Shown here one piece after another: positions 7,362 to 18,434 of a DNA stretch of 37,417 bases (its first letter is position 1; each line of letters begins with the position of its first letter). Source of the stretch: an uncultured Blautia sp. (GTDB lineage: Bacteria > Bacillota > Clostridia > Lachnospirales > Lachnospiraceae); NCBI GenBank assembly GCA_946538475.1, contig CAMNGN010000002.1:1-37417 (forward strand), given 5' to 3'. A program made the position numbers and the translations under genes. The notes beneath the pieces are model-generated. The model worked only from the letters and a program-made list of their open reading frames with translations. It was not told the origin of the DNA and made no database searches.

Positions 7362-10300
7362 ATGAGAAGGAAACAACTGTTTGCCCTTGCACTTGCCGGT
7401 GTTCTTAGTTTCAGCGTGACACCGACAAGTCTTTTAGCAGACGATATGTCCGATGCTCCGGCAGTAGCTGCATCTGCAGAGCCCGGTGCGGAAGAAGCTG
7501 CACAGGAACAGCCTGCACAGTCCGGAACGCCTGCGGCAGAAACACCTGCGGCTGAAGCTGCAGCAGATACACCTGCACCCGAAGCGCCGACCGAGGCTCC
7601 GACGGAAGCACCTGCAGAGGCGCCGACCCAGGCTCCGACAGAAGCACCGACCGAGGCTCCGACGGAAGCACCTGCGGAACCGGAACAGGTACCGGTCGAT
7701 ATCGGCAGTGACGAAACACCCGCAGCTGCGGCAACGGCCGCACCGACGGCAACCGCAGTTCCCGCGTCTACGGCAACGCCCGAGCCGACGGCAACACCTG
7801 CCGTGGCTCCGACCGAGACACCGACACCTGCGCCTGAGGATACAAAAACAAAGGCCGTGACAAATGAAGCAGAGCTTATTGCGGCTATCGCAGAAGCGGA
7901 CGGCAGTGACACAGCTGTGATCGATATCGCCAATGATATCGAACTGACGCAGACTGTCAACATACCGGAAGGCAAGAAGATCTGCCTGGTGACAATGGCA
8001 TCCGCTGCAGAGATAAGCCGTGCCGCCGGTTTTACCGGAGACATGTTCGAAGTCGACGGAACACTCAGCTTCCTTAAGGCAAACAAAGCAGGCGACATTA
8101 ACGAGACCGGCGGATCTCTCACGATCGACGGTGCGCTGATCGACGGAACCGCTGCAGGTTCTATCGTACATGTGAATGACGATGCTATTTTTGCTATCGA
8201 TGACAGTGCCGAACTGACAGGAAACCGCACTACCGCAAAAGGCGGTGCTGTATACAGCGACGGTCTTGTCCTTCTGCTTGGCGGAAGCATCTGGGGCAAC
8301 ACAGCAGAGGATGGCGGTGCAATCTACGCCAACAATCTGGTTTCCATAGAAAAATCGGCCGATGCGACAGGAAACTATGCATCGGACGGTGTAAAAGAGA
8401 ATAATATCGCACTTGCCGGATCGGCAATGCTGGTCGTGGATGGTGCGATCACCATAGGACGCGCAGGCGTACATGCGGTAGAGCCGGCCGAAGGTAAAAC
8501 TATCGTTCAGCTGAGCGAGACCGCAGCAGCCGAGACCACACTGGCCGAGGCACTGAGTTCCATCGAGCTGGATGACGAAAGCGATTATAAGCTGAATGCA
8601 GCAGGCAGCCTTGTTGCAGCAGAAGCTGTTTCAATCGATGAGCCTGACGCAACGCCGACTCCGATACCGTCCATCACTCCGGAACTCGGACGTGTGAGCG
8701 GTCCCGAATGGATCGATGAGACCACAGCTGCCATCACCTGTACCGCAGATATGGACGGCTGGTACTATGCGGCAGCTGCCCGCGAGAGCGATGAAGTGCC
8801 GGAGTTCGAAGTAAACGAAGACGGAATACCGGTCAAAGCCGGCGAGGATTTCACCATTACCGTAACAGTTCCCGAAGACGAAGATCAGTATTGCATCTAC
8901 GTTCTGATCAAAGGCGAGAATAATACCCTTTCTTCCAAGAAGAAAGCTCCTCTTGATTCCACCACAAGACCGGGACATGAGGCTGCGGCGGAAGAAGAGA
9001 CCGAAACCGAGGCAGTCGAAGAAGCAGTAGAAGCGATCGGAGCAGCCGAAGAAGAAACAACCGAAGAGACCGAGGCAGTCGAAGAAGAAGCAACGGAAGA
9101 AGCTGAGGCTGAGGAGACCGAAGAATCCGAAGAGGAGATAACCGAGGAGACTGAGGAAGAAGAGACCGAGGAGACCGAAGAGGAAACAACCGAAGAGACC
9201 GAGGAAGAAGAGGCCTCTGAAGAAGAGACCGAGGAGAAACCCGAGGCAGTAGGTGAAGGCGAAACGGTTACCGAAGTACAGATGACGGCAGCCAAGCTTA
9301 CAGATGCGGACATTCTTATTAAGAAGAATCGTGCAATTCCGTTCACGCTTTCCTTTGCAGACGAAGGCGATAAAGATATCTGGACCATCGATACGGTATC
9401 CGTTGTAGATAATGACTACGAGACAGTATCGACGCTCAGTGTGGAAAAAGGCAAAACGGAAGGCTATCAGATTGTACCTTCCGAAGATATTACCAAAGCC
9501 GGAGAATATATCCTTGTCGTAAACCTGACAACCGAAAGCGAAGAAGCGGCAACCAAGACAGCTACGGCTGAGATACCGTTTAAGAATTCCGCCTATACGG
9601 TTGCGGACGTAAAAGATACAAAGATCACAGGCCTCGAAGGATCATATCACTTCTTCCCGGGCTATTCATATGATTTCAGCGCAACAGGCGCAGGCCCCGA
9701 AACAGCAAGTAATATAGGCGATACACGCCTCGTGCCCCGTTCCTTTGCCCTGGTAGGAGAAAAGCAGGTAACCAAGTTCGAGAATACTTCAAGCGACCTT
9801 ACCAAGAGCGCGAAAGTTTATTCGACGAACGGTATTGCCAAAGCAAAAGATAATTCCTTCAGAGTGTACTTCCAGGTATGGGAGTGGAACGGAACAGAGT
9901 GGGTAGCTCAGAATGATCTGGCTTATAAGACCATCAAGGTTAAATCGCTTGCTCTGCCCGAAAAAGAAACTGTAACCATGGATATGGCTGAGCCGTCCGC
10001 TACAAAGACATTTACTGTCACCGGTTTTTCATCCGATCTTAAGATCAAGACATCCAATAAGGATGTTGCGACCGCAAGTATCAAGAAGACAAGCGGATCA
10101 TCTTCAAGTGACGGTACATACGAAGTCACAGTTACTGCCGGGAAAGCACAGACTGCCACTCTGACGGCTTATTTTGAGCAGGATGGCAAAGAAATACCTG
10201 TAAAAGAATTTGAAGTACAGGTAAGTCAGACCATCAACATCAGCAAGGGTAATTCCTTCAGTACAAGTGTAAAACTGGCTGACGGTCAAAAAGCAAAAGC

Positions 10301-11690
10301 TGTAGTTGCGATGACCTCCGTTGCCACAGCTGCTGTCGCTGATGATGGAACAGTGACTGTTACAGGCTTAAATCGCGGCAGTACTACTGTATCTGTGGTT
10401 GATGCGGCAGATTCTTCCTCCGAGCTGATGCGCTTTACCGTAAATGTCTTTACAGCTGAAAGGAATGTGACTGTAGGTGTCGGAAAGACATATACTTTCG
10501 GATTTACTTCCAGCAAGCCCGTTGATGTAACCGTTAAGAGCGCAGATGAATCAATTGCCACCACCGAAGTAAACATCAACCTGGAGTCTGACGGTAAATA
10601 TCATATTGATGGAACTATAACCGGTGTTAAAGAAGGTAAGACGGTAGTCTATCTGAATAACAATCATTACATCTATAATGTTACTGTTGTTAGTCAGGAA
10701 GAACCTTCACCGGATCCTGACAAGCCTGTAACAACCGAAAATATAACTGTTACCGCCGGAGACACTGTTTCGTCACCTGACGTTCTTGGGTTTAACACCG
10801 AACCTGATATTACGTTTACGCCTGATGTTCCCGGAATTGCCACTGCAACCGTTACCCGCAGAGACGGCGGTGCGGGAGACGCATATAAGTATTTGCTGAC
10901 CGTGAACATAAGCGGACTCAAGGCCGGAACCACCACGCTCAATATGTATGATAACGGTGTGCTGATAAGAAAGTACAATGTCACTGTTACTGCAAAAGAA
11001 GAGCATGTACCGGTCGTACCGAGCGTTTCTTCAGGATATGTCAATATTGACAACAAAAGAGTTGGGAACAATGACAGTGTTTCACTTCTCATGACTCCCG
11101 AAACAAGGTACACGATGAATGCGGTAGGTGCAGGTACAGACAACACATCGCCCGGAGAAGGTGATGTCAGATTTGTTCCTAAATTCTGGTGGCAGGAAGG
11201 CTCTTACGATGATAACGGTAAGCCGAGATATCAGACAAGCTGGGAATTCTATTCAAGCAAGGGTATATCTTCTGCAAAAGATATTCCGTTCAGAATTTAC
11301 TATGTGAGACAGACCTACACCAACGGAAGATGGGAACCGAGCACGATGTCCAACGATGCTACATATGCTGCAGGATATTACACCAAGCATACCATCAAAA
11401 CGATTGCTTACGATCCTTCCACAGGAACACCGACAAACTCCGGCAGCGGTACTTCTACCTACAGCGGTTCTTCAACAAGCAGCGGCTCTACGTCCACGAG
11501 CAGCAGAACAACAGCCTCGGGACACACTCCGACCGTTACAGGCGGAGCAACAGGATCCACTCAGGTGGGCAATGCCCGTACAGGCGACAGCGCTCCGGTA
11601 GGAACGATGCTTCTTCTGGGTATGATGTCACTTCTCACCGGCGGATACGTAGTCTCACGTAAACGTAAAGAAGATGAGTACGATATCTGA
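7362..11690 (+). CDS. Large cell-surface protein: signal peptide, Ala/Pro/Thr/Glu-rich repeats, beta-helix-like region, Glu/Thr-rich spacer, Ig-like repeats, duplicated unknown domain, C-terminal TGD-type anchor
   Basis: 1442 aa; MRRKQLFALALAGVLSFSVTPTSLLA signal peptide; NARTGDSAPVGTMLLLGMMSLLTGGYVVSRKRKEDEYDI anchor; GGAGG RBS. Confidence 0.9.
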   Translation: MRRKQLFALALAGVLSFSVTPTSLLADDMSDAPAVAASAEPGAEEAAQEQPAQSGTPAAETPAAEAAADTPAPEAPTEAPTEAPAEAPTQAPTEAPTEAPTEAPAEPEQVPVDIGSDETPAAAATAAPTATAVPASTATPEPTATPAVAPTETPTPAPEDTKTKAVTNEAELIAAIAEADGSDTAVIDIANDIELTQTVNIPEGKKICLVTMASAAEISRAAGFTGDMFEVDGTLSFLKANKAGDINETGGSLTIDGALIDGTAAGSIVHVNDDAIFAIDDSAELTGNRTTAKGGAVYSDGLVLLLGGSIWGNTAEDGGAIYANNLVSIEKSADATGNYASDGVKENNIALAGSAMLVVDGAITIGRAGVHAVEPAEGKTIVQLSETAAAETTLAEALSSIELDDESDYKLNAAGSLVAAEAVSIDEPDATPTPIPSITPELGRVSGPEWIDETTAAITCTADMDGWYYAAAARESDEVPEFEVNEDGIPVKAGEDFTITVTVPEDEDQYCIYVLIKGENNTLSSKKKAPLDSTTRPGHEAAAEEETETEAVEEAVEAIGAAEEETTEETEAVEEEATEEAEAEETEESEEEITEETEEEETEETEEETTEETEEEEASEEETEEKPEAVGEGETVTEVQMTAAKLTDADILIKKNRAIPFTLSFADEGDKDIWTIDTVSVVDNDYETVSTLSVEKGKTEGYQIVPSEDITKAGEYILVVNLTTESEEAATKTATAEIPFKNSAYTVADVKDTKITGLEGSYHFFPGYSYDFSATGAGPETASNIGDTRLVPRSFALVGEKQVTKFENTSSDLTKSAKVYSTNGIAKAKDNSFRVYFQVWEWNGTEWVAQNDLAYKTIKVKSLALPEKETVTMDMAEPSATKTFTVTGFSSDLKIKTSNKDVATASIKKTSGSSSSDGTYEVTVTAGKAQTATLTAYFEQDGKEIPVKEFEVQVSQTINISKGNSFSTSVKLADGQKAKAVVAMTSVATAAVADDGTVTVTGLNRGSTTVSVVDAADSSSELMRFTVNVFTAERNVTVGVGKTYTFGFTSSKPVDVTVKSADESIATTEVNINLESDGKYHIDGTITGVKEGKTVVYLNNNHYIYNVTVVSQEEPSPDPDKPVTTENITVTAGDTVSSPDVLGFNTEPDITFTPDVPGIATATVTRRDGGAGDAYKYLLTVNISGLKAGTTTLNMYDNGVLIRKYNVTVTAKEEHVPVVPSVSSGYVNIDNKRVGNNDSVSLLMTPETRYTMNAVGAGTDNTSPGEGDVRFVPKFWWQEGSYDDNGKPRYQTSWEFYSSKGISSAKDIPFRIYYVRQTYTNGRWEPSTMSNDATYAAGYYTKHTIKTIAYDPSTGTPTNSGSGTSTYSGSSTSSGSTSTSSRTTASGHTPTVTGGATGSTQVGNARTGDSAPVGTMLLLGMMSLLTGGYVVSRKRKEDEYDI
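7560..7690 (+). repeat. Degenerate APTEAPTEAPAEAPTQ repeat within the surface protein
   Basis: 29-nt segment CCGACCGAGGCTCCGACGGAAGCACCTGC is identical at 7587-7615 and 7647-7675 (60-nt offset). Confidence 0.85.
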
Positions 11691-11726
11691 TCAACACATA
11701 CAATGGTATAATTAATTAATCGATTT

Positions 11727-11758
11727 AAGGGGCTGTTCACAATTGTGGACAGCCCTTT
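11727..11758 (+). terminator. Rho-independent-type hairpin after the 1442-aa surface protein gene
   Basis: AAGGGGCTGTTCACAA / TTGTGGACAGCCCTTT: near-perfect palindrome with two G-U positions; short T-run only. Confidence 0.75.
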
Positions 11759-11807
11759 GTTAACATAATAATCTTATGTCATGGCGGAATAAGTCGACCG
11801 TTTTTAT

Positions 11808-11836
11808 TTGACTAAGCCCGCAAAGAGCACTATAAT
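11808..11836 (+). promoter_or_regulatory. Sigma-A promoter for the SipW/TasA-like operon (TTGACT-N17-TATAAT)
   Basis: -35 TTGACT 11808-11813, -10 TATAAT 11831-11836, exactly 17-nt spacer. Confidence 0.8.
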
Positions 11837-12139
11837 ACAAGTATATCCGGAACCGATTCACCAAGCTGACCAAGTCACCAACCAATAACCAAAACTCTTA
11901 AGGCATAAGCCTGAAGAACATATCCCGCCGGCAGAAAGCAATCTAATCTTATCTACGGGCTGTAAAAGCCCCTTCAAATCACAGCCTGCGCACAATTCCG
12001 CGCCCCCGATGGCTGTCATGTACTTTTTCTTCTATGAAAGGCCTGCAGACCGCAAGCCATCCCGAACAAATCCTATATTTCACGTACGAAAGATATTCAG
12101 GCAACTCTATCGTTTTATTGTGTATCCGGAGGTATAACT

Positions 12140-12211
12140 ATGTCCGGAAAAAGCAAGACAGGAGGCAGGGATCCGCCGAAGAACAAAAATGAATATCTAA
12201 AACTGTTCTGA
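12140..12211 (+). CDS. Putative 23-aa leader ORF (MSGKSKTGGRDPPKNKNEYLKLF)
   Basis: ATG at 12140 with GGAGG at 12128-12132 (7-nt spacing); stop TGA 12209-12211. Not in the supplied ORF track because of its length. Confidence 0.4.
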   Translation: MSGKSKTGGRDPPKNKNEYLKLF

Positions 12212-12399
12212 ATAAAACGAATCTAAACACACCAACAGCTTTTGTCTATATCTAAAGCAGCGGTGCTCATACAAATCAACTTCTACTCTATACCAAAGGA
12301 TCCGGAAAGGCGCAAAGAGCGTGAATGACCGGATATCAAAAAACGCTTCTTACGCCTTTCGGCTCTCCAAAAATATTTTATATCAGGAGACAGAAAACA

Positions 12400-12936
12400 A
12401 TGCGGAAAAACCTGCTGCGGGTTGCGCTCTGCCTTGCCGTCCTTCTCTTTGTTGTTTTTACGGCAAAGGCGGTGCGCGGACTGCGGATATATATTGTGAT
12501 GTCCGGCTCCATGGAGCCTGTGATTAAGACCGGGAGCCTGATCATATTGGATACCATGAAAACAAAACCGGAACCCGGCGAGATCATCACATTCGACATG
12601 GGTGATACCCTTGTGACCCATCGTGTGCTGCGGATCCATGATGGAATTTACGTCACTAAAGGAGACAACAATCCGTCGGAGGATCAGTCTCCGGTTTTCG
12701 GAGAGCAGATCAGAGGGACGGTTATCCTTACGGTACCGATGGCCGGATCAGTCATTCTTATGCTTCGCAGGCCTTCCGCCATCTGTCTTCTTGTCCCGAT
12801 GATACTGCTTATCACAGCAATCAAACATGCGAAAGAGAGGAATTTACATGAAAAAGATCACAAAAGCCGGCTTCTTCATTGCAGCGGCAACGGCAGCGAC
12901 AGTTATGATCGGCGGAACAATGGCGTATCTGACTGA
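12400..12936 (+). CDS. Signal peptidase I, SipW/ER-type (Ser-His)
   Basis: VMSGSMEP catalytic Ser box, TLVTHRVLRI His box, TKGDNNPSED box; RBS AGGAGA. The track ORF begins at 12325 but ATG 12400 is the better start. Confidence 0.88.
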   Translation: MRKNLLRVALCLAVLLFVVFTAKAVRGLRIYIVMSGSMEPVIKTGSLIILDTMKTKPEPGEIITFDMGDTLVTHRVLRIHDGIYVTKGDNNPSEDQSPVFGEQIRGTVILTVPMAGSVILMLRRPSAICLLVPMILLITAIKHAKERNLHEKDHKSRLLHCSGNGSDSYDRRNNGVSD

Positions 12937-13483
12937 CTATGATACGGTTACCAATCAGTTTACCGTCGGCAAAGTTGATATAGAACTCACAGAGCCCAAC
13001 TGGAAACCCGAGGAGAACACGTCCATTGAACCTGCAGGAGAGATAAAAAAGGATCCGCAGGTCACAAACACCGGAAAAAATGATGCCTATGTATATCTGG
13101 AAGTCTCTGTACCCATGAGAAAGCTGGTGACGGCAGATGCGAACGGAAACAGGATCGATCCGGCGCTCATCCAGCTGTTTACCTTCACACCGCAGGCAGG
13201 CTGGACCCTCATGGATTCGTTTACGGAGGAAAACAATAAAGTCTACAGGTATTCCTTCGACAAGATCCTGCCTCCCGGCGAAAAGACAAACGAACTGTTC
13301 AAGACCATGCAGTTTGCCAATGTTGTGGAGGGTCAGATCGACGGACAGACCTTTGATGTGCCGGTGCATGCATATGCCATCCAGTCGGCCAACACCGGCG
13401 GGGATAAGAATACTGTACCCGAACAGGCAAAGAATGCCTTCGAAAAATATCTGAACCAGAATAAAAAATCAGGAAAAGAATAA
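12848..13483 (+). CDS. TasA/camelysin-like SipW-dependent protein
   Basis: MKKITKAGFFIAAATAATVMIGGTMAYLTDYDTVTNQFTVGKVDIELTEP is a SipW-cognate signal peptide and mature N-terminus; directly downstream of the peptidase; RBS AGAGAGGA. Confidence 0.85.
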   Translation: MKKITKAGFFIAAATAATVMIGGTMAYLTDYDTVTNQFTVGKVDIELTEPNWKPEENTSIEPAGEIKKDPQVTNTGKNDAYVYLEVSVPMRKLVTADANGNRIDPALIQLFTFTPQAGWTLMDSFTEENNKVYRYSFDKILPPGEKTNELFKTMQFANVVEGQIDGQTFDVPVHAYAIQSANTGGDKNTVPEQAKNAFEKYLNQNKKSGKE

Positions 13484-13521
13484 AATGCTCCGGGCAGGCA
13501 TTGTTAAAGGAGGGATAGAAT

Positions 13522-14076
13522 TTGAGAACGACCATAAGATATATTCTATTCGCGGCAGTGCTCTTAATAACGGCGGTATTCGGCGCGGGAAAGACTTACA
13601 GCTTTCTCAGCGATTCCGAATCCGCAGTCAACCCGGTGACTCCCGGGAGTAACGAGTCGGTGATCGTCGAAGAATTTCCGGATTCTCCGCCTAAGGACCC
13701 GAAGGATAATCCGGTTTACGATAAAACAGTACAGATATCTGCCCCTCAGATCGGCGGATACAATGTGGACTGTTATATCCGGGCCCGCATCCTCTATTCA
13801 AACAGTGATATCGGAAATGCCGCTGTGCTTGAAGGGACCGATGCGGGGTGGGTAAAAGGCAGCGATGAGTATTATTATTACACAGGACTTATATCGGAGG
13901 GGCAGATGACCGCCCCTTTGTTTACCAAAGTGCGCCTGGATTCCTCAAAAATCCCGGCAGATGTCTCCGGGTATATACAGGATTTCCGCGTTTCTGTCTA
14001 CGAGGAATCTGTTCAGGCAGGAGACAGCAAGGATTACAAAGAAGCCTGGAGCAGGTTTGTTCCTGCAGCTATTTGA
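13522..14076 (+). CDS. TasA-like secreted protein (paralog 2; TTG start)
   Basis: 184 aa; N-terminal hydrophobic segment then GKTYSFLSDSESAVNPVTPG; CYIRARI...GWVKGSDEYYYY resembles the neighbouring 414-aa protein. Confidence 0.7.
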   Translation: MRTTIRYILFAAVLLITAVFGAGKTYSFLSDSESAVNPVTPGSNESVIVEEFPDSPPKDPKDNPVYDKTVQISAPQIGGYNVDCYIRARILYSNSDIGNAAVLEGTDAGWVKGSDEYYYYTGLISEGQMTAPLFTKVRLDSSKIPADVSGYIQDFRVSVYEESVQAGDSKDYKEAWSRFVPAAI

Positions 14077-14095
14077 GGGGAGGTGATGACGATTT

Positions 14096-15340
14096 ATGAA
14101 GAAAATGCGCTATTGTCTGATAGCCGCAGCATCGGCTTTTACCCTTGCAGGCGCGATCTACGCGGCGTACACAAGCACTGTCAGCGTTGTCAACCATGTG
14201 GAGACAGGCGACGTGAATATAGGTATCAGCGAATATATGATCCGCGGAGGAAAAGAGACCGCATACGCGGAACCTGCGTCTGTGATGCCGGGAGATGTTA
14301 TCTCCAAGATCCCGAGGATCATATGCTATGCCGATCCATGCTGGGTAAGAGCCAGGATCACCCTTCAAAAAAGCGGTGAGGGAGAAGATTATCCGGCTAT
14401 CGGAGGAATTCCCGAAGGATGGAAAAAAGCAGGAGATTATTATTACTACAAAAAACCTTTGAAAAAAGGAGAATCCGTGGACATTTTCCGCACAGTTACC
14501 ATCCCTGCGGATTGGGGAGACGAGCATTTTGAGGAAAGCCTGTCTGTCACGATCAGGGCGGACGCCGTACAGTCAAAGAATTTCAAGCCGGAATTCAGTT
14601 CGATGTCCCCCTGGAAAAACCAGGAAATCGAACAATGTGTTCATGAGACGGACAATTCCGAGCCTCAGACGACCGAGCACATAATAAACACCGTGGAATA
14701 CAGCGGAGATGCCCACAAACTTGTGGCGGCACCCAATGACTTCTTTAAAAATATCGGACGTCTGATGCCCGGTGATTCGACAGGCGATTCTGTCGAGATC
14801 AGGAACACTACAGACAGAGAGGCCGAGCTCTTTTTCTTTGCCGGATACGAAAACCAGACCGACACACAGATCGAGCTCCTGAAAGCCCTGGACATGCAGA
14901 TCAGTCTGAACGGGAGAGAGATCTACAAAGGTAAGCTGACCCAGGAAGGCATGGAAAAAGGCGTTTCGCTGGGCAAATATGCTCCCGGCGCAGGCGGGAA
15001 GATGGATTTTACCATCACCATGCCGGAGAATCTGGGAAATGATTACGCAAGACGAAATGCAGACGTCAAATGGATCTTTGCCGTGGCAGAGGAAGAGTTA
15101 TCACCTACACCTGCAAAGACGGCCGTTCCCTCGGGCGGAACATCCGGCGGAGAAAGCGGTGTGACTTCATATTCAGGCCCTGCAGGAGGAAAGGTGGCTC
15201 CCGAGGGTTCCACTGTCTCAGCCCCGATCAAGACGGGCGACGACACGCCTGTACGTACTCTGGCTGTGCTGCTGTTGTTCTCGGCGTCACTGATTTTGAT
15301 ACTGTTTTTTGCAAAGAGGAGGATGGATCATGAAAAATAG
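14096..15340 (+). CDS. Two-domain TasA-like protein with C-terminal TGD-type anchor (paralog 3)
   Basis: MKKMRYCLIAAASAFTLAGAIYAAYTSTVSVVNHVETGDVNIGISEY N-terminus; second domain with NDFFKNIGRLMPGDSTGDSVEIRNTTDREAELFFFA; C-terminus APIKTGDDTPVRTLAVLLLFSASLILILFFAKRRMDHEK. Confidence 0.82.
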   Translation: MKKMRYCLIAAASAFTLAGAIYAAYTSTVSVVNHVETGDVNIGISEYMIRGGKETAYAEPASVMPGDVISKIPRIICYADPCWVRARITLQKSGEGEDYPAIGGIPEGWKKAGDYYYYKKPLKKGESVDIFRTVTIPADWGDEHFEESLSVTIRADAVQSKNFKPEFSSMSPWKNQEIEQCVHETDNSEPQTTEHIINTVEYSGDAHKLVAAPNDFFKNIGRLMPGDSTGDSVEIRNTTDREAELFFFAGYENQTDTQIELLKALDMQISLNGREIYKGKLTQEGMEKGVSLGKYAPGAGGKMDFTITMPENLGNDYARRNADVKWIFAVAEEELSPTPAKTAVPSGGTSGGESGVTSYSGPAGGKVAPEGSTVSAPIKTGDDTPVRTLAVLLLFSASLILILFFAKRRMDHEK

Positions 15341-18300
15341 AATATGCAGCATCATTCTTGCCTCCTGTCTGATCGCGGGGATGCTCTCGCAGACTGTGTG
15401 CGGCGCCGGCCTTTCTCTGAATTTGCTTTCCGCTGTATTGTCCTCGATCGAAGAAAATGAGGACAGTCTTTTCGATGAGATATTGGAGGAGCCTGCAGAA
15501 GAAGTTCTCCCTGATGTAAACGTTCCGGTCATAGAAGAAGAGAGCAGCAATATTGAAGAGCCGGATTTCGGTCAGATCCCTTCGGATGCAGGACTCATTC
15601 TTCCGGATGCAGGACTTCTTCTGCCGGATGAAGGAGAAGTCCCTCCGGAAGAAGAAATACAGGAAGAAGTTATGCCGGGGGAAGATTTTTTGGACGTCCC
15701 GCCTGAAGATGCTTTAAGCGGAGATGAACCGATCGAATCCTTTGCAGAAGAATTTCCCGGTGCCATTGAAGAAGAACTTGCAGAGGAATTGCCTCCGACG
15801 GAAGATGCAGAAGAAGAGAATATCGTCGAAGATTCCGTCATTGAACCTGACAAGATCGAAGTAGATGATGATGCCGATGCTGATAAAGAAGGCCGTTACG
15901 TGTTTGACGGCTATCTGGAAGACGGGATCCCCAACTATGTCTGGGAAGGTGAAGGAAGGCCATCGGTGCTCGGGGACGAGATCATCCTGCCTAAGGAGAA
16001 TTTCCCGGAACTGTCAACGCCAGAAGAGGATACCCCGGATCTTTCAACTTTAGAAGAGGATATCCCGAAACTGACGACGCTCAAGGAGGATATCTTTGAA
16101 ACGGTGATACCGCAAATGAGAATGCAGAACATTTGGCTCACAGGTATCTCTCCGACGTCGGAGGGCGGCAATTATCTCGCGGATCCGGTCAAAAGAAAGA
16201 TATATCACAGCAACAAATCATTTTCAGAAAAAGCAGAAAGTGAAATGAAGGATGGTCTCCATACGATCGGCCCCGGCATGGTCAGAGCGTATAAAGGAGG
16301 AAAATACTTTATCGACGGTGGCTTTGCCCTGGACGGCAAAAAATATTATGCTGACGAAAGCGGGCTGCTGATAGGAGGATGGCTGAAAACTGTCGGGGAT
16401 TCATCTGTAGAAGACCCAAACTCGGTGGCCAACGATAAAAAGTTTTCCTTTCGCTATTTTGACAGAGAGTCCTATGTGATGCAGACAGGCCGAATAAATG
16501 TCGATGGACTGTGGCATTACTTTAGCAGCGACGGAAAACTGCTCAAAGACTCGGCAGTGACACTTGAAGGGAATTATTACTATTCGGATCATTATGGTAT
16601 CTGCGAGCAGGTAAAACTTCGCTACGGAAATACATTAATATCCGAAGAAAACCAGAATAATGACACATATAAAGCGAATAAAAGTGTCAATGCGGTGGAT
16701 ATCAATACATTTACGGGGCAAAAAGGCGAATACAGTTTCAGACCAAGGTGGTATCCGGGTGTATCTTCACTGGAATTATTCGGATTTCCCGAAATGATAG
16801 AGGATCTGTACGGGTGGTACTGTCCGCTTTCGGACAATTCGCTTCAGGGCAGTATCGGCTGTATATATCGCAAGGTCGGCAGATATAAAGGCAGGGAGAT
16901 GGATCTGAAGGTGATCGTGACCGGATATGATCTTTTTTCACTCTGCGGAGATACAGAAATAGGATATTTTTATGTCTATAAAAAGAATATAGGCCTGAAC
17001 ACGGTAAACACCAAAAATCTTACCGCCGATCTGATCTTCCTGGATCACGAAACAGGCCGGGAAGTATCGGTGAAAGGATATGCAACGTTCACGGATATTG
17101 ATATCGGCCAGACTGTTTCCGTATTGAGTCCCGTAGACGAAATATTTGTGGACAAGGACTGTGTTCTCTACAAAGATCCCGCAAGCAACACGTTTACATC
17201 ACCGTTTATTGCTAAAAGAATCGGAAGCGTCGTGAACGATAACGACCGTGAATACTGGGTGCAGGTAAACTTTACCGGAAGTCGTCTGAGTATTCGGATA
17301 GGGAGTGCCTACGAACAGTATGTCTTTGCGGAGAGCGGTCTTGACATCGCAGGAGAAAGCCGGAATATATGGCGGGATAATTACACGGGGGACCCTCACA
17401 GCTATTCCCTTTTCGATTCTACAGGGGCTCTGCTGCGTGGCTGGCAGGGAATCTATTACAAGAAACTGGGCCGTGTATCTATTCCTCCGGTCGCCAAGAC
17501 CGTCTCTGACGAGGACGAGATCGATGTAACAAAAAATCGTCTTCGCGACGATGAGCTTCGCTACAATTATACTTTGAGCCACAATGTCCCGGGAGAGAAC
17601 GAAGAATTCTTCTATGATTCTTACATGGTCAGTGATGATTTTGAGGAAGGCCTTGTCATTGATAAGGACGGAATTTTCGTCACCACCGACAATGAGGACG
17701 ATGTGACCGGCCTATTTGACATAAGCGTCGTAGACCGGAGAGTAGAATTCAGGGCTCATCCCGACATATTGAAAGACGCTTCTTTCTATGACAACAATTA
17801 CAACTACCACATACCGGTAGTGATAAGGGAGGTGGAAGGCCTTAAGAACAAAGACAAGAATGACTATATTATATATAATGAATGTTCGGCAGAATTCAGC
17901 CGGCTCGGTTCTTCCGAAAGCACCCGGAGCAATATGACCGAGACACGTATCCGCATTCCGGTTTCCTTTGGTTCTATTACGATCACCAAAAGAATAAAGG
18001 AGGCGGACATCGTGTGGGCTCATGGAAATCCTGCTTTTTTGTTCCGCGCGGAGGGCGAGGATGAAAAGGGTAAATTCCACAGATACGAAGAGTTTCTCTG
18101 CTTCCGCAAAGGCGGCTATTCGTTGACGGGAGACGGTTTTGCCGAAATTTCGGTTACGATCGCTCATGTCCCCTGCGGAACGTATCGTGTCACGGAGCTT
18201 CCCGTCATGGATTACTATCTGACAGGAGCCGAAGCGGCGACCGGAAACATGCTGATCACAACCGTCGGCGAACCGGGAAAAGGCAAGGATCCCTCACTTA

Positions 18301-18434
18301 CCGCTTATGGAACAGGTACACTTTCGAGGGAAGAACCCGACGCCGGAATCATATTCTACGATACCAAAGGCAATTACAGCGGATATCGCCACACCGACGT
18401 TGTGTGCAATTCGCTGCCTCTTACACTTGATTGA
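15330..18434 (+). CDS. Large adhesin-like protein: acidic N-terminal region, cell-wall-binding-type repeats, C-terminal prealbumin/Cna-B-like domain; no membrane anchor
   Basis: Start ATG 15330 with GAGGAGG RBS (track ORF begins 15309); signal peptide MKNRICSIILASCLIAGMLSQTVCG; GKYFIDGGFALDGKKYYADESGLLIGGW repeats; ITITKRIKEAD...VPCGTYRVTELPVMDYYLTG. Confidence 0.8.
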   Translation: MKNRICSIILASCLIAGMLSQTVCGAGLSLNLLSAVLSSIEENEDSLFDEILEEPAEEVLPDVNVPVIEEESSNIEEPDFGQIPSDAGLILPDAGLLLPDEGEVPPEEEIQEEVMPGEDFLDVPPEDALSGDEPIESFAEEFPGAIEEELAEELPPTEDAEEENIVEDSVIEPDKIEVDDDADADKEGRYVFDGYLEDGIPNYVWEGEGRPSVLGDEIILPKENFPELSTPEEDTPDLSTLEEDIPKLTTLKEDIFETVIPQMRMQNIWLTGISPTSEGGNYLADPVKRKIYHSNKSFSEKAESEMKDGLHTIGPGMVRAYKGGKYFIDGGFALDGKKYYADESGLLIGGWLKTVGDSSVEDPNSVANDKKFSFRYFDRESYVMQTGRINVDGLWHYFSSDGKLLKDSAVTLEGNYYYSDHYGICEQVKLRYGNTLISEENQNNDTYKANKSVNAVDINTFTGQKGEYSFRPRWYPGVSSLELFGFPEMIEDLYGWYCPLSDNSLQGSIGCIYRKVGRYKGREMDLKVIVTGYDLFSLCGDTEIGYFYVYKKNIGLNTVNTKNLTADLIFLDHETGREVSVKGYATFTDIDIGQTVSVLSPVDEIFVDKDCVLYKDPASNTFTSPFIAKRIGSVVNDNDREYWVQVNFTGSRLSIRIGSAYEQYVFAESGLDIAGESRNIWRDNYTGDPHSYSLFDSTGALLRGWQGIYYKKLGRVSIPPVAKTVSDEDEIDVTKNRLRDDELRYNYTLSHNVPGENEEFFYDSYMVSDDFEEGLVIDKDGIFVTTDNEDDVTGLFDISVVDRRVEFRAHPDILKDASFYDNNYNYHIPVVIREVEGLKNKDKNDYIIYNECSAEFSRLGSSESTRSNMTETRIRIPVSFGSITITKRIKEADIVWAHGNPAFLFRAEGEDEKGKFHRYEEFLCFRKGGYSLTGDGFAEISVTIAHVPCGTYRVTELPVMDYYLTGAEAATGNMLITTVGEPGKGKDPSLTAYGTGTLSREEPDAGIIFYDTKGNYSGYRHTDVVCNSLPLTLD
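16260..16620 (+). other. Cell-wall/glucan-binding-like repeats within the adhesin
   Basis: YKGGKYFIDGGFALDGKKYYADESGLLIGGWLKT and GRINVDGLWHYFSSDGKLLKDSAVTLEGNYYYSDHYGIC have the aromatic/Gly pattern of CW-binding repeats. Confidence 0.6.

Follow-up and report, generated by a model that had tools for sequence, protein, structure and literature searches.

A predicted TasA-type adhesive pilus with a wall-anchored base and an unanchored tip adhesin in Blautia and other Clostridia

How might a bacterium retain a giant secreted adhesin that carries no wall anchor of its own? The question is raised by a locus in an uncultured Blautia sp. (Lachnospiraceae), found in a stretch of 37,417 nucleotides (contig CAMNGN010000002.1, positions 1 to 37,417; hereafter the window). 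At window positions 11808–18434 lies a set of five genes for a SipW-type signal peptidase, two small TasA-family proteins (C and D), a predicted wall-anchored protein (E) and a large adhesin (F). Taking together the gene content, its recurrence in other genomes and a short conserved tail on F, we think it probable that the locus builds a thin TasA-type adhesive pilus, fixed to the wall, with F as the tip that starts the fibre by means of a C-terminal strand mimic.

The five genes were located where a first-pass annotation of the sequence had placed them, all on the plus strand (ORF coordinates and sequence reading; Table 1). The spacings between consecutive genes, in the order SipW, C, D, E and F, are −89, +38, +19 and −11 bp. 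That annotation had read the genes as one unit, and a single transcription unit is indeed likely in view of the tight spacings, the promoter ahead of them, both hexamers of which are identical in a rumen relative (L033), and the preceding terminator-like hairpin. The hairpin is retained in L033 with its letters changed, and it was absent from the output of a terminator scan. The long leader matched no family in an Rfam search; it may carry regulation. Within it, at 12140–12211, a short reading frame (23 aa) served by a good ribosome site (GGAGG) was observed; its start and first codons are shared with L033, after which the frame diverges. Upstream of the locus, positions 7362–11690 encode, as a separate unit, a surface protein of 1442 aa that contains long repeats rich in Pro, Thr, Ala and Glu and carries a TGD-type sorting signal (NARTGDSAP, followed by a helix and RKRK), and its gene likewise lies upstream of the locus in L033.

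Table 1. Coordinates of the features of the locus within the window, with the basis of each assignment.
Feature	Position	Strand	Basis and remarks
Terminator-like hairpin ending the upstream gene	11729..11755	+	GGGGCTGTTCACAATTGTGGACAGCCC, then T-rich; spotted by eye
Sigma-70-type promoter	11808..11836	+	TTGACT-17-TATAAT; 11/12 consensus matches, a type of site no commoner in the region than chance
Long 5' leader upstream of sipW, ~560 nt	11843..12399	+	Well conserved in L033
SipW-type signal peptidase, 178 aa	12400..12936	+	Start ATG 12400; TIGR02228 3.7e-25, NF046067 9e-23
C, TasA/camelysin-family protein, presumed major subunit, 211 aa	12848..13483	+	PF12389 1.7e-07, TIGR04090 1.5e-10, TIGR04088 1.6e-08
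Predicted donor strand of mature C	12926..12967	+	YLTDYDTVTNQFTV; alignment and position relative to TasA residues 28-38 (PMC9674648)
D, small BsaA/TasA-family protein, presumed minor subunit, 184 aa	13522..14076	+	TTG start; TIGR04090 4.6e-05; hhalign to C
E, predicted wall-anchored base, 414 aa	14096..15340	+	TasA-like domain 14165-14650, second domain 14663-15130, linker, sorting signal
Sorting signal of E	15221..15337	+	APIKTGDD + membrane helix + KRR; sequence and homologue C-termini
F, unanchored secreted tip adhesin (predicted), 1034 aa	15330..18434	+	Signal peptide present, no anchor
Choline/glucan-binding-like repeat in F	16485..16586	+	PF19127 2.4e-05, TIGR04035 2.1e-05, both below cut-off
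Isopeptide-type adhesin/pilin domain in F	17493..17846	+	PF17998 AgI/II C2 3.4e-06 (above cut-off); TIGR04226 8.4e-06
Conserved CnaB-like docking domain of F	17958..18383	+	Family alignment
C-terminal tail of F	18384..18431	+	YRHTDVVCNSLPLTLD; resembles the subunit donor strand, clearly across the family and weakly in this sequence

The first gene encodes a signal peptidase of the Ser-His, SipW type, as had been proposed: the protein scored 88.6 bits against TIGR02228, above the cut-off of 51.85, and carries the serine motif SGSMEP and the histidine motif THR. Against the Bacillus SipW model NF046067 it scored 80.8 bits, below the cut-off of 190. The reading frames of SipW and C overlap by 89 bp, and the same overlap is found in L033.

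The proposal that C is a TasA/camelysin-like candidate major subunit was borne out by scores above the cut-offs for the camelysin family PF12389 (31.7 bits; cut-off 22.5) and for the SipW-cognate signal TIGR04088 (34.5 bits; cut-off 19). Its score against the Bacillus TasA model NF046066 was far under the cut-off (14.5 bits; cut-off 450), and both C (41.2 bits) and D (23.3 bits) remained below the cut-off of 60 for the BsaA family model TIGR04090. Among the homologues, PF12389 was matched by 12 of 15 C proteins and TIGR04090 by all 14 D proteins. Profile comparison with hhalign related C to D (E 2e-25), in keeping with the earlier description of D as a second small TasA-like protein, and related the first domain of E to both C (E 6e-18) and D (E 3e-30); by this comparison all three belong to a single family. 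Neither C nor D has a C-terminal sorting signal or anchor. Among solved structures, a search by sequence gave no relatives of C, of E or of the F docking domain. Structure prediction was too poor to bear out the TasA-like jelly-roll expected of the subunits: a single-sequence model of C was of low confidence (pLDDT 44), and the fold search with it returned noise, with no significant match; a model of D built from four alignment rows (pLDDT 62) gave only non-significant fold matches, among them the DraE/AfaE adhesins at a TM of about 0.33. Another locus, L098, is expanded, with six consecutive C-type subunit genes at 11411–16279 flanked by two sipW genes.

Mature C begins with YLTDYDTVTNQFTVG. 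When C was aligned to TasA by F39 and G42, its strand corresponded to residues 27–37, and in an alignment by eye TasA has Ala at the position of the Asn in C, D and F. The donor strand of TasA comprises residues 28–38, and F29, I32 and F39 contact its neighbours (PMC9674648). Asn36 of C is invariant in the C homologue alignment, and the donor-strand Asn is conserved in 15/15 C, 14/14 D and 9/14 E proteins.

E had been described as a two-domain TasA-like protein with a membrane or wall anchor. The TasA-like first domain and the sorting signal stood up to analysis, and the TasA-likeness of the second domain proved only moderate (comparison with the first domain: probability 83.5, E 8e-6). PF12389 and TIGR04090 were each matched by 6 of 14 E homologues. 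An xKTG or related xTGD motif precedes the helix in 12 of the 14, and no sorting motif was recognisable in the other two. Since the two parts of E are neighbouring separate genes, for a pilin and an anchor protein, in four loci (L038, L050, L097 and L100), E in the window looks like a fusion. The earlier remark that the locus has no sortase was upheld: a profile search of the genome, which is 82% complete, gave three sortases (PF04203 matches), all on other contigs. The base E would most likely need a sortase encoded elsewhere in the genome.

F agrees with its earlier description as an adhesin of roughly 1034 aa without an anchor; it has a signal peptide, and a wall signal is absent from it as from all 27 F-like proteins. 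These proteins can be aligned over one C-terminal domain only, which we refer to as the docking domain. The variable parts ahead of it in relatives include thioester (TED) and von Willebrand A (VWA) domains, SpaA repeats and a GBS104-like domain; a domain search of the window F gave no TED or VWA match. The docking domain contains an invariant Lys, an invariant Glu and a usual Asn (TITK, VxE, FxNxK), which we infer to be those of a CnaB isopeptide domain. It has no curated name in these loci and is distantly like DUF7601. F-like proteins from L045, L099 and L094 run on for 219–553 aa past this domain, which the remaining 24 of the 27 do not.

To what extent do these components belong together? 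A search with C among 250 genomes of the family gave matches in 35. With profiles of the five components, 32 loci were mapped, 27 of them with the F docking domain, and these 27 contained a D-type subunit in every case and SipW in 26. Because the mapped loci had partly been selected through C or the docking domain, a search of the 250 genomes with the docking domain alone is the fairer, less biased test: all 24 matches, spread over 22 genomes, had a TasA-like gene within about 5 kb. Outside the family, the domain was matched three times in the class, each time in a TasA-type locus. The set of components is constant across loci while gene order varies, being SipW-C-D-E-F in the window and in L033–L036, C-D-E-SipW-F in L039, L040 and L043, and F-C-D-E-SipW in L042, with further orders elsewhere. 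All five components occur together across Lachnospiraceae and two other families of Clostridia, with L092, L093 and L094 representing the other families of the class. Conserved synteny had been set beforehand as a point on which the proposal could fail, and the proposal passed this test: the components co-occur in many loci, other families included, in varying order. Recurrence of the set in so many diverged genomes excludes a chance association. The roles suggested by the first-pass annotation, namely maturase, shaft, minor subunit, anchored base and tip adhesin, gain support as predictions from this recurrence and from the sortase-pilus tip domains in relatives of F.

The feature that, in our reading of the sequences, accounts best for the possible retention of an adhesin without an anchor is the tail of F, which the first-pass annotation had missed. 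The family consensus of the tail, [YFL][ST][HD]xDVVxNxF (for example FTDTDLCVNHFG, LTDTDVVKNSLVI and YSHRDVAVNQFTL), was set against the mature subunit strand LTDxDxVxNxFTV (YLTDxDxVxNxFTV in C). A profile of 23 tails scored 2.68 against the profile of C and D strands, a value reached in 0 of 4000 column permutations (−18.4 ± 4.2), and the match persisted with the Asn held fixed (p 0.0003); this Asn is present in 23/23 aligned tails. The tail was by a wide margin the top window among about 130 in the docking domain, and in 13 of 24 proteins it was the top-scoring site of the entire available stretch (about 640 aa). Tails also scored above 194 control C-termini (Mann–Whitney 8e-12, for related tails whose rows are not independent). 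The claim rests on the family, because the tail of the F in the window, YRHTDVVCNSLPL, is a poor fit to the strand profile; the near-identical tail of L033 scored −3.3, within the controls. Tails did not match the strands of their own locus better than those of other loci (C, p 0.12; D, p 0.31). Among the subunits, the N-terminus of E is the least tail-like and has lost the Asn in 5/14 proteins, a loss expected if E only receives a strand.

A TasA-type subunit extends its own strand only once it has been complemented (PMC9674648). In Bacillus, TapA, whose fold is complete and whose N-terminus resembles that of TasA, starts TasA filaments and is confined to the start position (PMC10151520). In the mechanism we propose, SipW would remove the signal peptides from C and D, and probably from E, and so release their N-terminal strands, and F would be exported by the general route and act as the first subunit. 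With its C-terminal tail, F would occupy the groove of one small subunit; this subunit would in turn extend its own strand into the next, so that a fibre with a shaft of C and D would grow at the cell-proximal end, starting at F and ending at E. The TasA-like domain of E would accept the last strand, and a sortase encoded outside the locus would fix E to the wall, leaving the variable front part of F to bind its target. F fits the place of the starter, having a complete CnaB-like domain with a strand; a counter-point is that the strand of F is C-terminal, whereas known donor strands are N-terminal. We infer the fold, the docking, the polarity, the filament, the target and the place of D. On the broader proposal our judgement is nearly balanced, leaning slightly to doubt: that these loci represent a distinct and widespread pilus class of Clostridia, in which TasA-family subunits joined by donor strands form the shaft, a TasA-fold protein anchored to the wall forms the base, and giant, exchangeable tip adhesins initiate the fibre by a C-terminal mimic of the N-terminal donor strand, possibly with a lock formed without a sortase by isopeptide bonds at the invariant Asn.

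The nearest studied systems are biofilm-matrix fibres (C. perfringens BsaA, mostly extracellular, PMC7395162; TasA, PMC9674648), and C and D are members of BsaA/TasA-type families. The two might simply polymerise and be shed to the matrix, with E and F merely co-secreted as surface or matrix proteins and F no tip at all. We consider this unlikely, since it leaves unexplained the confinement of the F docking domain to these loci, the donor-strand-like tail, the lack of an anchor on F and the presence of a TasA-like domain on the wall signal of E. A classic sortase pilus that has lost the sortase from its locus, with C and D as accessories, would account for the tip-type domains in relatives of F, the wall signal on E and the three sortases in the genome. 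This we regard as very improbable, as the F domain is consistently found together with SipW and TasA-family subunits, and a pilin sortase could not polymerise C and D because neither has a sorting signal. Both readings are ranked below a tipped TasA-type pilus.

Other doubts concern the details of such a pilus. Convergence could account for the resemblance between tail and donor strand if the tail were just where the CnaB fold finishes, or a tag recognised by some other partner; the tail directly follows the last CnaB strand (FxNxK), shows no own-locus matching and in some proteins extends further. This nevertheless seems improbable to us, given that tail and strand agree in order, one position after another, more than composition explains, and that the domain is found only beside TasA-type subunits. 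An addition to the pilus reading rather than its opposite is a shaft covalently locked without a sortase, through an isopeptide bond between the donor Asn (N36 of C, N37 of D and that of the F tail) and Lys K68 of C and D. The Asn and Lys are invariant in 29/29 C and D proteins, and the tail Asn is invariant. BsaA polymers resist SDS and formic acid, by a mechanism that the authors left open, assemble in E. coli and are independent of SrtB (PMC7395162), and archaeal threads pair strand complementation with proposed isopeptide bonds (PMC9715654). However, Asn stands at the same place in other BsaA-family proteins too, the geometry of such a bond is hypothetical, and the Lys may be structural. 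We consider the lock improbable. As candidates for the catalytic Glu of such a bond, the Glu of C and the Glu of D were rejected, their positions not being equivalent.

Comparison with known systems suggests a known kind of polymer in a new architecture. The tapA-sipW-tasA operon of B. subtilis shares with this locus SipW, SipW-type signal peptides, a camelysin-family subunit and a separate starter that copies the subunit strand (AFHDI in TapA, AFNDI in TasA; PMC10151520); unlike this locus, it has neither a wall-anchored base nor a giant adhesin, and the strand of TapA is N-terminal whereas the copy in F is C-terminal. The sipW-bsaABCRSD operon of C. perfringens shares SipW and BsaA-family subunits, with a polymer independent of the SrtB tested (PMC7395162), and differs in that it also contains a two-component system, while neither a wall-anchored base nor a tip adhesin has been described for it. 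The TasA/CalY/CapP system of B. cereus (PMC13082335) has sortase-independent camelysin heterofilaments and a chaperone-like assembly factor at the cell wall, CapP, which modulates polymerisation; its published abstract and outline mention no tip adhesin with a donor-strand-like tail. Sortase-built pili (with RrgA, GBS104 or Cpa as the tip) follow the same plan of a TED/VWA/CnaB tip adhesin, a shaft and a wall-anchored base, but here the shaft subunits are of the TasA family and lack sorting signals, the locus has no sortase and the tip has no sorting signal. The tip domains of sortase pili (TED, VWA, CnaB) are found in F homologues, and the window F has an isopeptide domain and a repeat instead. 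In the F-ENA of B. thuringiensis, which also has an anchored base, F-BclA forms the tip and docks by a copy of the subunit hook motif (PMC11952670); there, unlike here, the subunits are unrelated, the structure belongs to the spore, the tip is collagen-like and the hook is N-terminal. In the literature covered, which was mostly open papers, neither a TasA-type pilus that combines an anchored base with a tip adhesin nor a SipW system from Lachnospiraceae turned up, so the novelty is provisional.

These observations suggest a role for a docking domain that lacks a curated name, and the invariant Asn offers a concrete test of how the BsaA polymer of C. perfringens survives SDS and formic acid. 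If the proposed pilus is real, it would explain how a giant unanchored adhesin is retained on the cell, and the TasA matrix fibre would be one member of a class of adhesive pili rather than a scaffold. Many gut and rumen bacteria would then have a second route to tipped, wall-anchored pili, one that does without a pilin sortase.
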